DNA of 64,000 nucleotides. It comes from Lachnospiraceae bacterium (GTDB taxonomy: Bacteria; Bacillota; Clostridia; Lachnospirales; Lachnospiraceae). Where the stretch lies: positions 1 through 64,000 of the forward strand of contig JAIDHX010000046.1 in assembly GCA_029053015.1 (NCBI GenBank), read 5' to 3'. This document shows, in pieces, positions 45,126-49,835 of the stretch (position 1 is the stretch's first letter; each line of letters opens with the position of its first letter). The notes beneath the pieces are model-generated. The model was not told the origin of the DNA, did no database searches, and saw only the letters and a list, made by a program, of their open reading frames with translations. The position numbers were made by a program, and so were the translations under genes.

Positions 45126-47414
45126 CTATAAAATGTCTATTTCTTCCGCCTCTTCTTTTCCAAACCGTTTTACCAGTATCTTTTTGTACGGCTTGTCGTA
45201 TCCCGCATGCACCAGCCTGCAGGTCACCTTGCCGTCCTCCCCTGCGGTAAAGTGGTATTGGTTGTATGCACCTTCACGATACATAAAATCCGCTCCGTTG
45301 TCAAGGTAATGGTCGTACTCGCCCTCACCCTGCCATACCATAACGGTCAGCGTATCCTGCGGCTTCTCTCCCACATAGGACTGCTCCTCCATCATCGGCA
45401 GAACCGTTCCCGCCTTCACATAAATGGGGCAGGTGTCCAGCGGCGCATCCCGCAAAAACCACACCGGGCCGGTGATCTTTTCTCCTGTCCAATAGTCATA
45501 CCAAACGCCCTCGGGCAGATAGACCGCGCGCTTCCTCACACCCTGATAGACTACCGGCGCTGCCAGAATGCTGTCGCCAAGCATAAATTCGTCGTTGCAT
45601 ACCCTTGCCGTCTCGTCCTTCTCATAATGGAGCACCAGCGGACGCATAATGGGCATGCCCGTCTTTTCCCCCTCAAAAAACAAATCATAAAAATACGGAA
45701 TCCACTGGTAACGCAGCTTCACATATTTTCTGTAAATATCCATAATTTCCCTGTCAAACTGCCACGGTTCCTGCGGCCTCGTGCCCAGAGCGGAATGATT
45801 GCGGAACAGAGGGGAAAAGCAGCCCACCTGCACCCATCTCGCCAGAAGCTCCGGCGTCACGTCTGCGCCAAAACCGCCCACATCCGTTCCCACAAAAGGC
45901 ATACCCGACAGCCCCAGATTGCAGAGTTGGGGAATCACCATCTGTACATGCGCCCAGAGACTGTTGTTGTCCCCCGTCCACGCAGTCGCATATTTCTGGC
46001 TTCCGGCATAGCAGGCTCTTGTAATCACAAAAGGTCTGCGCCCGTCAAGCTCCTTCAATCCGCCAAACGCCGCCCTTGCCATCTGATGTCCGTATATATT
46101 GTGCATCTCCGCATGGGTTATTTTTCTATCCTCGTCGGAAAATACCACATCATCCGGCAGAGGTCCCTTAAAGCTGGCCGGCTCGTTCATATCGTTCCAA
46201 ATACCCCGCACACCCATATCCAGCAAAAACTGCTGTTTTTCGCCCCACCATTTCCTGACGGCAGGATTGCCGAAATCGGGGAACGCCGAATCGCCCGGCC
46301 ATACCGCATTGATATAGACCTCGCCCTCCGGCGTTTTGGCAAAATAACCGTTTGCCACGCCCTCGTCATATACTTCATAGCCCTCTTCCTGCTTTACACC
46401 GGGATCATTGATGGTAACCACCTTAAAGCCCTGTGCGGACAGCTCTTCCAGAAATGCTTTGGGCGCATTCTGATAGCGTCCTTCATTCCATGTAAACACC
46501 TTATAGTCCTGCATGTAATCGATGTCAAAATGAATTACATCACAGGGAATGTCGTTGCTGCGGAATCCTTCCGCCACCTTCTTTACATCCTCCTGCGTTG
46601 TGTATCCCCAGCGCGACTGATGATACCCCAGCGTCCACTTTTGCGGAAGCGGACAGGTTCCCGTCAGATAGGTATATCCGGCAAGCACCTCCGGCATGGA
46701 ATGTCCCGCTATGTAGTAATAGTCCAGTGCACCGTTCACTGCGCCAAACCAGTAATAATCCTCCGACTCCTGCCCCATGTTAAAATAACTCTTGTAGGTA
46801 TTGTCCATGAAAATACCGTATACATACGTATCGTTGAGCGTGATAAAAAACGGAATCGATTTATACAGCGCCTTAAAGCAGTCCACCTGCGGCGCGGGAT
46901 TATCCGTATTCCACATTTCGTAGTCATAATGCCTCTTATCCAAAAATCCGGTCTTATCGCCCAAGCCGTAAAAATGCTCGGAGCCGCTCAGTTTTTTAAT
47001 GACCTCAAACTCACATCTCTGCCCGTCAAAATCAGCGGCATGTCCTTCCTCCACCAAGAGCTTTTTCATCTCGTCACTGACTCTCTGCAGAGGCTTTCTC
47101 TCTCCGCGGTAATCCTCACAGACGCAGACGCCTTCCCCGTCAAAAAAATCCACATAAAAACCGTCCGAGACCCTGACTGCCGCATCCTTGGTCCGAATCC
47201 AGAGAAATGCCCCCTCTTTTTCCACCTTTATATCTGTGGGAACTTCCTTTTCCCCCTCAATCGCCTTCGAGCCCACCCTGCTGCCGTCCCTGCTCCTGAA
47301 AACATTGAAAATAAGCGGCGTAAGCACCCTGATTTGTGCTTTTTCTCCCTCAAAATCAAGCGTTATCTTCTGTCCGTTCACTTCGTAATTTGTCAGCTTT
47401 CCAAATCCTCTCAT
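45126..47414 (-). CDS. Glycoside hydrolase family 31 (alpha-glucosidase-like)
   Basis: The 762-residue enzyme has the GH31 nucleophile Asp408 in GIWNDMNEP and the acid/base Asp482 in WTGDNNSLW. HQSRWGY (265-271) and HFDIDYM (295-301) help bind substrate. It would release glucose (or xylose) from alpha-linked oligosaccharides in the cytosol, as there is no signal peptide. Length is standard. GGAGGATGGT sets the start at 47414; a longer frame to 47576 is not used. It complements the maltodextrin cluster further right but is not joined to it. Confidence 0.93.
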   Translation of the reverse strand: MRGFGKLTNYEVNGQKITLDFEGEKAQIRVLTPLIFNVFRSRDGSRVGSKAIEGEKEVPTDIKVEKEGAFLWIRTKDAAVRVSDGFYVDFFDGEGVCVCEDYRGERKPLQRVSDEMKKLLVEEGHAADFDGQRCEFEVIKKLSGSEHFYGLGDKTGFLDKRHYDYEMWNTDNPAPQVDCFKALYKSIPFFITLNDTYVYGIFMDNTYKSYFNMGQESEDYYWFGAVNGALDYYYIAGHSMPEVLAGYTYLTGTCPLPQKWTLGYHQSRWGYTTQEDVKKVAEGFRSNDIPCDVIHFDIDYMQDYKVFTWNEGRYQNAPKAFLEELSAQGFKVVTINDPGVKQEEGYEVYDEGVANGYFAKTPEGEVYINAVWPGDSAFPDFGNPAVRKWWGEKQQFLLDMGVRGIWNDMNEPASFKGPLPDDVVFSDEDRKITHAEMHNIYGHQMARAAFGGLKELDGRRPFVITRACYAGSQKYATAWTGDNNSLWAHVQMVIPQLCNLGLSGMPFVGTDVGGFGADVTPELLARWVQVGCFSPLFRNHSALGTRPQEPWQFDREIMDIYRKYVKLRYQWIPYFYDLFFEGEKTGMPIMRPLVLHYEKDETARVCNDEFMLGDSILAAPVVYQGVRKRAVYLPEGVWYDYWTGEKITGPVWFLRDAPLDTCPIYVKAGTVLPMMEEQSYVGEKPQDTLTVMVWQGEGEYDHYLDNGADFMYREGAYNQYHFTAGEDGKVTCRLVHAGYDKPYKKILVKRFGKEEAEEIDIL

Positions 47415-47524
47415 ACCATCCTCCGCCAAGCATGATTTTCTTTTCCCGATTATACTCTGATTATAATATAATTCACCCGAAAAGCAAACACTTATATTCC
47501 CGCAGCATGTCAGATTTATTGGCT

Positions 47525-48328
47525 TTAAAAAGACTTTGATTTGCAACGCTGACAGTATCGAAATAAACAAAGCCACTGGATGTACAGCGTGACGCCGTCT
47601 TCATGGGAATGTGGCAGCCCCGCCTGCTTCAACGCCACCTGCACCTGCCTTTTTGTAAGCAATCCTCCTTTTCCGCAAACACCATATTTCATCGAATGTG
47701 CAATAAATTTTTGAAAGGCACCATATTCACTCTTCTTCAAATCAGGCACTGCTTTTTTGGTGAAATGCAAAAGGACTGAATCTACCGACGGTTTGGGGTG
47801 AAAATCCTCTCTGCGAAAATGCCATAAAACTTTCATTTCCCAATTTACCTTCAGCAACAGTGACTTTTCGTTTTCCCTTGGAATCCCCATGAATCTTTTT
47901 GCCGCGCCCTTCTCCATAATAAGCCAGATATCCGTCGGCGGATTGTTTGTATTCGTTAGTTTTTCTATAATCTGCGTCGTAATAAAATAGGGAATGTTGG
48001 CAAACACCTTGTAATTTCCCTTTACCGGCAGAGAATACTTCAGAAAGTCCCCACAAATCAGTTTTACATTGGAAAACTGCGACAATTTTGTCCTTGCATA
48101 GTCTGCAAGCTTTGCGTCAATCTCAATGGAATAAACAAAGCCGCCCTTCTGACAAAGCGCTTCCGTCAGGTGCCCTTTTCCTGTTCCAATCTCAAAGACA
48201 GTGTCCTCTTTGCCAATGCCGCCAAGCCGCACAATCCTGTGCAGCAGTTTTCTGTCCGTTATGAAATTTTGTGAATTTGAAAGCTGTTTTGTATCGTTTC
48301 TTTTTTCCTGTTTCCTGCCTTTTTGCAT
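47525..48328 (-). CDS. erm: Erm-type 23S rRNA adenine-N6 methyltransferase
   Basis: The 267-residue protein has the Erm/KsgA motifs: SNSQNFIT (17-24), EIGTGKGHLT (46-55), SIEID (67-71), GDF (93-95), NIPYFITTQII (111-121), and FHPKPSVDSVLL. Methylation of A2058 gives macrolide-lincosamide-streptogramin B resistance. It is Erm rather than housekeeping KsgA because of the FHPKPSV segment and the overall spacing, and it has an inducible-type leader. It appears divergent from ErmA, B and C and may be a chromosomal lineage. Start at 48328, behind GGAGATG; two earlier ATGs lack a site. Confidence 0.88.
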   Translation of the reverse strand: MQKGRKQEKRNDTKQLSNSQNFITDRKLLHRIVRLGGIGKEDTVFEIGTGKGHLTEALCQKGGFVYSIEIDAKLADYARTKLSQFSNVKLICGDFLKYSLPVKGNYKVFANIPYFITTQIIEKLTNTNNPPTDIWLIMEKGAAKRFMGIPRENEKSLLLKVNWEMKVLWHFRREDFHPKPSVDSVLLHFTKKAVPDLKKSEYGAFQKFIAHSMKYGVCGKGGLLTKRQVQVALKQAGLPHSHEDGVTLYIQWLCLFRYCQRCKSKSF

Positions 48329-48381
48329 ATAAATCATCTCCATTTCCAAATCAATTTATAGTTTCTTTTGAAAAAGGCAAC

Positions 48382-48422
48382 AAAAAAGCAGGTAAATCCT
48401 CCGCAAACGGACTTTTCCTGCT
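48382..48422 (-). terminator. Attenuator terminator in the erm leader
   Basis: AGCAGG...CCTGCT (48417-48422 with 48387-48392) closes a hairpin with an inner UCCG/CGGA stem, followed by six T. It lies 54 bases before the erm start. The stop codon of the second leader peptide overlaps its 5' arm, so a ribosome there would block its folding. Confidence 0.75.
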
Positions 48423-48456
48423 AAAACGATACAATATGGCAAACAGAGCAAAACAT
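48421..48456 (-). CDS. erm leader peptide 2 (MFCSVCHIVSF)
   Basis: Eleven codons from an ATG three bases behind a perfect AGGAGG (48460-48465), ending in TAG at the edge of the terminator. The short spacing weakens the case, but the placement against the terminator suits a regulatory peptide. The sequence has no well-known stalling motif apart from a weak IV pair. Confidence 0.5.
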   Translation of the reverse strand: MFCSVCHIVSF

Positions 48457-48556
48457 GAGCCTCCTCACATCCTGCCTGCCTACATATGACATTTGTATTT
48501 GCATGCAAAAAAATCCCATTTACATGAGACGATATATCTGCTTTTTTATCGCCCTG

Positions 48557-48592
48557 TTATACGGATACGACCGCAAATACAAATAAACACAC
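48557..48592 (-). CDS. erm leader peptide 1 (MCLFVFAVVSV)
   Basis: Eleven codons from a GTG, five bases behind AAAGGTGG (48598-48605), stop TAA. AVV at residues 7-9 parallels the IAVV stalling motif of the ErmA leader peptide (MCTSIAVV...), and both begin Met-Cys. Codons 3-7 lie in the strand that pairs with 48491-48502, so a macrolide-stalled ribosome would break that pairing. Confidence 0.65.
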   Translation of the reverse strand: MCLFVFAVVSV

Positions 48593-48622
48593 GTAAGCCA
48601 CCTTTCTTTTCTATTTGGATAA

Positions 48623-48651
48623 AGTATAACAAAAAGGAAGCTGCATGTCAA
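48623..48651 (-). promoter_or_regulatory. erm promoter
   Basis: TTGACA at 48646-48651 and TATACT at 48623-48628 with a 17-base spacer, near consensus. Confidence 0.85.
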
Positions 48652-48683
48652 TTTTTCTGCCGGACATTTTTTGCCGGGAAAAA

Positions 48684-49835
48684 TTATGCAGGTATATATC
48701 TATTATAAATTTCCACATGGTCATAGATACATCTCCAAACGCTGGTTGAACCTACCGTTACACAAATGTACGGTGTTCCGCCTGCAAAAATACCATAGCT
48801 TACCGCACAGTTTCGAGCCTGGGTTATATACCCCGTCTTAGCGCACAATACCTCGCCCCCTGTTTCTTTATCCTCGATTCTCCGCAAGAACCAATTAGAC
48901 ATTGTAATCCCATCCGGATGTTGTTCCGTTGGCGCAGTGGTATAAATATGCGCAGACAAAAATTCCCTGCACAACTCGTTCTGCATTGCCGCCTTCATAA
49001 TAATAGCCATATCATAAACAGTGCAATAATGGTTTTCATCATAAAGTCCTATACAATTCGTAAAATGAGCGCTGTCCGCTATCCCAAGCTCTTCCAATTT
49101 TGCATTCATCATATCTACAAATGCCTCATGGGAACCCGCTGTATAAATCGCAAGCCCTAATGCAGCATCGCCTCCGGACGGCAGCACAGCTCCGTAAAAC
49201 AGATCGCGCACTGTTACTTCTTCCCCATTCAAAAATCCCACTGAGCTGCAATCATGTACATAGGCATAATCGGTAATTTCCAAAGTCATGGTGAAAGTGT
49301 CATCCAGATTTTCTTCCTTAATCTGCTCCGCTGCTACGAGCACAGTCAGCACCTTTGTCATGGATGCAGGATAGATTCTTTCATCCGCACCCTTCGAGGC
49401 AATGATGATATCTGCACTTTCATCAACCAGAATAGCATTCGTACTGATTACTTCCTCATCGTAAATGGTAACTGTATCCGGTGTTGATTCAAAACTATAA
49501 GCGAGCCTTTCTTCTTCCGGTTCTGATACACTTATCTCAGTTTCTGGTATCTCTCCCTCCGTCCCAGCCATATCCGGTACACCGGTCCGCCTTGCGGTCC
49601 CCGCACTTTGCTCCTTTGACAGAAATTTATCCGCTTCCTGTTTTCTGCCGTGTTTTATGACAAAACCGATAAAAACTGCCAGCACAATAAGTCCTATCAG
49701 GCACAAAAGCCTTTTCAACATACGCTGCCTTCTTATGCGCCGCTGCCGCTCAAGCCGCATACGTCTTCTTCGCTCGTAGCGAATGCGGAATTCTCTTTCT
49801 TCATCTCTGTCATCCAAATATGGTTCCATGGTCAT
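48684..49835 (-). CDS. D-alanyl-D-alanine carboxypeptidase (S11 family)
   Basis: The 383-residue protein has a very basic cytosolic start (RRRRMRLERQRRIRRQRMLKR in the first 41 residues), one membrane helix (about 43-60), a linker, and an extracellular DacA-type domain. The motifs are SMTK (158-161), SGGD (220-223, in place of SxN) and KTGYI (333-337). It trims peptidoglycan stem peptides. The C-terminal domain of PBP5 is absent. The promoter end of erm lies just downstream. Start is the first of two ATGs; the ribosome binding site is weak. Confidence 0.88.
   Translation of the reverse strand: MTMEPYLDDRDEEREFRIRYERRRRMRLERQRRIRRQRMLKRLLCLIGLIVLAVFIGFVIKHGRKQEADKFLSKEQSAGTARRTGVPDMAGTEGEIPETEISVSEPEEERLAYSFESTPDTVTIYDEEVISTNAILVDESADIIIASKGADERIYPASMTKVLTVLVAAEQIKEENLDDTFTMTLEITDYAYVHDCSSVGFLNGEEVTVRDLFYGAVLPSGGDAALGLAIYTAGSHEAFVDMMNAKLEELGIADSAHFTNCIGLYDENHYCTVYDMAIIMKAAMQNELCREFLSAHIYTTAPTEQHPDGITMSNWFLRRIEDKETGGEVLCAKTGYITQARNCAVSYGIFAGGTPYICVTVGSTSVWRCIYDHVEIYNRYIPA

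Follow-up and report, generated by a model that had tools for sequence, protein, structure and literature searches.

ErmA is controlled by a two-leader system, in which macrolides stall the ribosome on a leader peptide that contains an IAVV motif. The mef(E)/mel and mef(A)/msr(D) attenuator carries a leader peptide of the '+x+' kind (Mef(E)L/MefAL, MTASMRLR); Chancey and colleagues describe a 5' stem-loop that is disrupted by the stalled ribosome and an anti-attenuator formed by the distal repeats dIR1 and dIR2, with leader, terminator and distal repeats tested by deletion (PMC4335068). Apart from the peptide, these authors saw no homology between this leader and that of erm(K) (PMC4335068). 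Transcription attenuation with an Arg-x-Arg leader in front of erm is described for erm(D), erm(K) and erm(J) of Bacillus (ErmDL, MTHSMRLRFPTLNQ; PMC8298421, PMC4335068), and erm(K) is reported to possess two adjacent terminators (PMC4335068). The tlrB (yxjB) gene of Bacillus subtilis, which codes for another methyltransferase, is reported to combine an RYR leader, a terminator, an RNA polymerase pause and a sequestered ribosome site, with the stalled ribosome itself blocking the base of the terminator (PMC6851288). Among erm upstream peptides at large, a 2024 survey reports no universal conservation pattern and postulates independent origins (PMC11264731).

Here, we analyzed a stretch of 64,000 nucleotides from a Lachnospiraceae bacterium (contig JAIDHX010000046.1; hereafter, the window), which carries an erm gene on its reverse strand (Table 1). 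The erm product scores 213 bits with the broad NCBIfam Erm model NF000499 (cut-off 212) and matches Pfam RrnaAD. The gene is chromosomal, in a genome of 3,691,300 bases, and is flanked by a D-Ala-D-Ala carboxypeptidase gene on one side and a family 31 glycosidase gene on the other. For comparison, we assembled 80 erm relatives, giving 81 loci with the window, and inspected up to 700 bases upstream; most relatives are metagenome-assembled and the loci are related, such that counts over them are not independent. The best-matching relatives come from genomes named Lachnospiraceae, mostly metagenome assemblies. On a protein tree of the 81 Erm and five KsgA sequences, Erm stands apart from KsgA. 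In the same genus, 15 of 138 genomes have an erm match at E ≤ 3.6e-59; the remaining matches, with 31–38% identity, are taken to be KsgA. Two loci from same-genus genomes (L004, L005) show one in-frame TGA inside the erm match. Among plasmid records, 1,774 have an Erm match, none of them at ≥60% identity, with identities of 35–38% among the 15 matches listed.

Upstream of erm, we found a frame that the preliminary description of this DNA had not listed. It encodes MFICICGRIRITGR and starts two nucleotides downstream of the frame MCLFVFAVVSV, which had been put forward as the sensor. The ribosome site AAAGGTGG, previously assigned to the latter, is indeed present; it serves the second GTG two bases downstream, the start of MFICICGRIRITGR. 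A hand tally gave an Arg-x-Arg (or Lys-x-Arg) peptide before erm in 78 of the 81 loci, with the upstream region of L086 unrelated and those of L080 and L104 cut by contig ends. An automatic search for an Arg-x-Arg mini-ORF with a ribosome site returned 77 of 81 loci, the window included, subject to hand corrections (false picks for L060 and L086; RKSR in L060 and L074; a 28-residue form in L105). With a stricter ribosome-site score, 71 of 81 loci were retained, compared to 3 of 81 when these stretches were searched in reverse complement. Moreover, in the last 11 codons of the 43 leaders of the commonest form, entropies at codon positions 1, 2 and 3 were 0.477, 0.595 and 0.937, respectively, and a maximum at position 3 is expected of a coding frame. 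Internal stops were encountered in none of these 43 leaders in the MFICICGRIRITGR frame, but numbered five and one in the other two frames. As judged from sequence, the MFICICGRIRITGR frame, not MCLFVFAVVSV, is the conserved and probably functional candidate sensor, and a putative short Arg/Lys-x-Arg/Lys leader with its own ribosome site, of the '+x+' kind, precedes a macrolide-resistance gene at this locus. In L086, a contig labelled Flavobacterium, erm lacks such a leader; by eye, unrelated sequence lies immediately upstream, which suggests an insertion or a misassembly.

The near-consensus promoter of the preliminary description was likewise found, although a scan of the stretch returned two promoter-like sites, no excess over shuffled sequences (mean 2.2). 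By alignment, this promoter is kept in L084 and absent in L032, where the upstream DNA differs. L032, the closest relative (erm 95% identical), has the leader in common with the window, while its DNA diverges from about position 48620 upwards; there, another promoter appears to front the conserved attenuator.

Table 1. Features of the erm leader region in the window, ordered along the transcript.
Feature	Position	Strand	Remarks
Putative promoter, TTGACA-17-TATACT	48623..48651	-	11/12 consensus; TG before -10
Leader ribosome-binding site, AAAGGTGG	48598..48605	-	Within a 15-base block identical in 10 aligned leaders
Frame MCLFVFAVVSV of the preliminary description (GTG start)	48557..48592	-	In another frame than the conserved leader, which it overlaps; taken as non-functional
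Candidate leader peptide, MFICICGRIRITGR (GTG start)	48546..48590	-	Arg8-Ile9-Arg10 at 48569-48561
P1, 5' arm (leader codons 3-6)	48573..48584	-	Covariation; 11 of 12 pairs counted
Antiterminator, 5' arm, GGCGATAAAAAAGCAG	48538..48553	-	Overlaps leader stop; folding, alignment
T1, TCTCAT-loop-ATGGGA then T7	48507..48529	-	Weak hairpin; 94.6% of cells paired
P1, 3' arm	48491..48502	-	Covariation
Leader 2 of the preliminary description, MFCSVCHIVSF (ATG start)	48421..48456	-	Behind AGGAGG; judged not functional
T2, putative intrinsic terminator, AGCAGG...CCTGCT and T-run	48382..48422	-	-14.0 kcal/mol
Antiterminator, 3' arm (T2 3' arm and U-run), CTGCTTTTTTGTTGCC	48376..48391	-	Pairing in alignment
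erm (23S rRNA adenine methyltransferase)	47525..48328	-	ATG at 48328, start inferred from relatives

The leader folds far better than its shuffled versions (z = -6.64). A T2 match was obtained for 58 leaders, 55 of which were placed in an alignment (A1; L049, L082 and L094 left out); the terminator pattern missed L078 and L088, in which the same arms are present by eye. The perfect 12-base pairing noticed earlier, with ATTTGTATTTGC fully complementary to its partner segment, corresponds to a helix, P1, that joins leader codons to the segment following T1; 87.2% of cells pair across the 55 leaders, with two-sided changes in 8 of the 11 counted pairs. T1 itself is a possible pause site or first terminator. 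The claimed terminator-like hairpin, at 48422-48387 with a T-run, was also recovered; it is paired in 95.5% of cells with two-sided changes in three of six pairs, and a putative intrinsic terminator is thereby placed between the leader and the gene, while a simple consensus terminator scan did not list T2. Taken together, P1, T1 and T2 yield a covariation score of 0.221, compared to 0.129 for shuffled alignments (0 of 500 as high) and ≤0.105 when the structures are slid, in a comparison that favors the structures in place because they were taken from the window row.

In addition, GGCGATAAAAAAGCAG can pair with the T2 3' arm and U-run, forming a putative antiterminator that is paired in 93.0% of cells, compared to ≤68.5% for slid versions, to which the same bias applies. 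Three of its pairs show two-sided changes in the 55 leaders, but pair types are not in excess over shuffles (121 of 500), and support for this helix is therefore mostly conservation. In a single-sequence test, the long-range duplex beat all 50 shuffles in 55 of 73 leaders and was beaten once or twice in six; the remaining 12 comprise 11 leaders of a sister erm clade (see below) and L075, for which the wrong leader was taken. A further helix, between the P1 3' arm and a TTGTAT stretch before T2, was considered and set aside as weakly conserved (16–46 of about 54 cells paired per pair). The leader RNA is absent from Rfam at gathering score: a permissive scan of 47400-49000 returned one microRNA match far below cut-off, and in eight related loci the sole matches were an azaaromatic riboswitch and a tRNA, each outside the leader.

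To follow the alternative pairings, we folded the 55 leaders with a 29-base mask representing a ribosome stalled on Arg-x-Arg, the middle residue of the motif occupying the P site. Under this mask, the antiterminator was predicted at >0.5 and T2 at <0.2 in 42 leaders, while 13 of the 55 failed these thresholds. Free RNA favored T2 in 28 of the 42; in 14, including the window (0.99), the antiterminator was already predicted to be favored, and requiring an off state in the free RNA thus lowers the count for the fold switch from 42 to 28 of 55 leaders. In the window, the off state therefore requires ordered formation of P1 and T2 and hence kinetic control. P1 was predicted in the early transcript of 49 of 55 leaders, and when pairing was barred up to the end of P1, T2 was above 0.5 in 53 of 55. 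When the ribosome was placed at the stop codon, 51 of 55 leaders had T2 above the antiterminator, although in leaders that end right after Arg-x-Arg this state is hardly distinct from the stalled one. In these predictions, an alternative pairing removes the terminator when the leader is occupied, in the window as well.

We favor, with a probability of roughly 85%, a ribosome-mediated transcription attenuator of the '+x+' (ErmDL/MefAL) kind, with MFICICGRIRITGR as the sole sensor peptide. This model is based on the conserved frame, on conserved and covarying helices and on the folds predicted with and without a masked ribosome; from these we infer the drug, the stalling, the timing, the pausing at T1 and the read-through. 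Deletion tests published for mef(E)/mel, whose attenuator has the same plan, also speak for it (PMC4335068). In the absence of drug or of a ribosome on the leader, P1 would form first and hold the antiterminator arm in its loop, T2 would form and transcription would end before erm. A macrolide-bound ribosome would stall on MFICICGRIRITGR while Ile9 occupies the P site and Arg10 is next to be added; by covering the P1 5' arm, it would free the antiterminator arm, which could then pair with the T2 3' arm and the U-run, such that RNA polymerase would read into erm. T1 might make the polymerase pause and so stay in step with the ribosome, as is described for tlrB. The earlier idea that a ribosome stalled on a first leader rearranges the RNA and prevents an intrinsic terminator from forming is thus backed by comparison and folding.

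The preliminary description had assigned these events to other peptides: MCLFVFAVVSV as leader 1, with an ErmA-like AVV stall, and MFCSVCHIVSF as leader 2, which would become exposed and whose ribosome would block the terminator. Both frames can be read in the window, both have ribosome sites there and in L032, a stall at AVV would cover almost the same bases as proposed above, and the TAG stop of leader 2 touches the 5' arm of T2, as had been stated. However, a functional role for either frame is not borne out by the relatives. The AVV frame has a start codon in only 12 of 77 leaders and none in 65 (window counted); it closes after one or two codons in 9 of these 12 and is open past two codons only in the window, L032 and L058. 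In L084 (erm 92% identical over the available part), it stops after two codons, in L032, a codon is inserted within the motif (FASVV), and relatives read VVLAP or VVHAP without a start codon. Val-Val is a shifted reading of the codons around the arginines. Leader 2 occurs in the window and L032 only (2 of 81 loci, search of 450 upstream bases), or in 3 of 10 aligned related leaders when L084 with its changed, weaker ribosome site is counted; L033 has ATA in place of the ATG. Neither named peptide is therefore conserved among close relatives, the two-peptide arrangement falls away with leader 2, and terminator loss is explained by the long-range antiterminator instead of a ribosome on leader 2. 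We consider the two-leader reading highly improbable.

Translational attenuation, in which the stalled ribosome would free the erm ribosome-binding site and the hairpins would not be terminators, is the usual mode of inducible erm genes (PMC4335068) and fits a sister clade of the window's erm. This clade comprises 17 erm relatives among L089–L111 (nine labelled Oscillospiraceae, four Defluviitaleaceae and four others), which on the tree of 81 Erm and five KsgA sequences form a group of 19 with L104 and L105 (support 0.946), while the base of the other clade, which contains the window, is weakly supported (0.091). The leader is short, for instance MCVIRIRK, and keeps Arg-x-Arg. In 16 of the 17, L111 being the sole exception, the leader start is immediately preceded by a TACACCT-like stretch whose possible pairing with GAGGTGT upstream of erm reaches -8.9 kcal/mol or better; in 13 of 17 (not in L096, L100, L106 and L111), the pairing beats at least 190 of 200 shuffles, placing it in their best 5%, and L105 exhibits a compensatory change (GCACCT with AGGTGC). 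The sister clade thus seems to have kept the sensor with a different output, translational control by sequestration of the erm ribosome site. In the window clade, however, T2 has a T-run and is located upstream of the erm ribosome site, and the pairing of the antiterminator arm extends through the U-run, which makes a purely translational switch very improbable there. A mixed control is compatible with the attenuator: protection of the mRNA by the stalled ribosome might add a large part of the induction, as suggested for mef(E), whose terminator-less mutants are reported to have stayed inducible (PMC4335068); we regard such a contribution as possible, if rather doubtful. Deletion of dIR1, the equivalent of the antiterminator arm, gave higher, uninducible expression, for which the authors invoke a new pairing (PMC4335068); this result speaks against the simple model, which predicts less expression.

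Returning to the proposed transcription attenuator, we searched for its RNA with a covariance model built from 46 leaders (alignment A2) and covering the first 130 positions. At E ≤ 0.001, it matched 11 of 138 genomes in the genus and 17 of 397 in the family; at E ≤ 0.01, matches came from 15 of 392 genomes in the order and 9 of 391 in the class. These genome sets overlap, and the searches used stricter filters. Of 33 distinct matches at E ≤ 2.1e-6, 15 lie before erm or erm pieces, 17 (L126–L138, L140–L143) before mef(A)-like efflux genes, which are spread over many genera, and one before a mef-related transporter. The last (L148, 1501-1611, minus strand; 44.8 bits) belongs to another family of the class; the RNA lies about 110 bases upstream of the open frame of the distant transporter, with the leader MLICMRK. 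Two mef-like transporters that were scanned reached 541.7 and 555.1 bits for MefA, below the cut-off of 675. At 13 loci from 12 genera (L126–L135, L140–L142; one cut short), the protein is 99.8–100% identical to that of L126, which argues that the mef-like gene is mobile or has recently spread. A DNA search of plasmids and phages with the Lachnospiraceae mef leader gave no match. At L126, the strand opposite the mef leader carries an azaaromatic riboswitch (RF01764, 2486-2612) at a distance of about 0.9 kb. Nine weaker matches to the model (E 2.4e-4 to 0.01; L144–L147, L149–L153) are probably due to chance: no erm or mef-type gene was found there, scanned genes were unrelated (for example glmS, ispE and aconitase; no family for L152; L145–L147 outside the gene scan), and no Arg-x-Arg leader was seen in the stretches inspected. 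Five of the nine recur in a small search, with smaller E-values that only reflect less sequence searched.

The mef-like leader reads MLICVR* or MLIFVR* in the three loci examined (L126, L136, L138); with one arginine, at which the peptide ends, it recalls the release-stalling MsrDL (MYLIFM; PMC10314930). Leaving aside each other, the Lachnospiraceae mef-like leaders are nearest, within the set compared, to a Lachnospiraceae erm leader, L073 (scores 53.5 and 49.5; null maxima 18.0 and 19.5); for streptococcal-type mef(A) leaders, the nearest are other clostridial erm leaders, with scores of 32.5 and 35.5 to L077 (null maximum 15.5). The window leader scores 9.5 and 13.0 against mef(A) leaders (null maximum 15.5) and is thus within the null, so that sequence kinship, if any, would run through other erm leaders. 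Whether the attenuator, with its Arg-rich sensor, P1, antiterminator arm, T1 and T2, is an exchangeable cassette that was passed between unrelated macrolide-resistance genes of Clostridia, the sister erm clade having retained the sensor while its output shifted from termination to sequestration of the ribosome site, strikes us as evenly balanced.

In these Clostridia, one sensor motif extends across two erm clades whose outputs appear to be of two kinds, and erm and efflux genes share one RNA plan, which makes the evolution of drug-sensing leaders testable. In gut bacteria with erm genes far from the named ones, the RNA model can help to find macrolide resistance that is probably inducible. 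The corrected frame has a practical side, as the AVV frame would have directed toeprinting to the wrong site. By title, no paper on Lachnospiraceae erm leaders was found within the limited collection searched.

With ErmA, the window shares a macrolide stall on a leader peptide, here predicted, but the window clade has neither a conserved second leader nor a conserved AVV frame. The tlrB switch is akin in its RxR-type leader, terminator and pause, yet differs in the gene and in the ribosome itself acting on the terminator; a distal antiterminator arm, as proposed here, is not mentioned in the available part of its description (PMC6851288). The Bacillus erm(D)/erm(K)/erm(J) leaders resemble the window in placing Arg-x-Arg before an erm gene and in transcription attenuation, and one relative (L087) has a leader, MTHSMRIRK, that resembles the ErmDL type; for erm(K), the comparison covers leader peptide and mode of control. 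The closest plan is that of mef(E)/mel and mef(A)/msr(D), with a '+x+' leader and a 5' stem-loop disrupted by the stalled ribosome, as proposed here. In a mef(A) leader (L155), GGCAATAAAAAAAGCAG directly follows the peptide frame and forms an arm that pairs with CTGCATTTTTTATTGCC, the 3' arm and U-run of the terminator; a T-run hairpin lies between arm and terminator, the terminator ends CCTGCATTTTTTATTGCC, and the order of parts is the same as in the window. In contrast to mef(E)/mel, the gene here is erm, and the leader has 14 codons with four residues after Arg-x-Arg; with the covariance model, the mef(A) leader scores 12.1 bits (E 0.041), a sequence too distant for certainty. The leader of the window is thus a new member of a kind of switch that is already known, and the new part is the sharing of the RNA between erm and mef.
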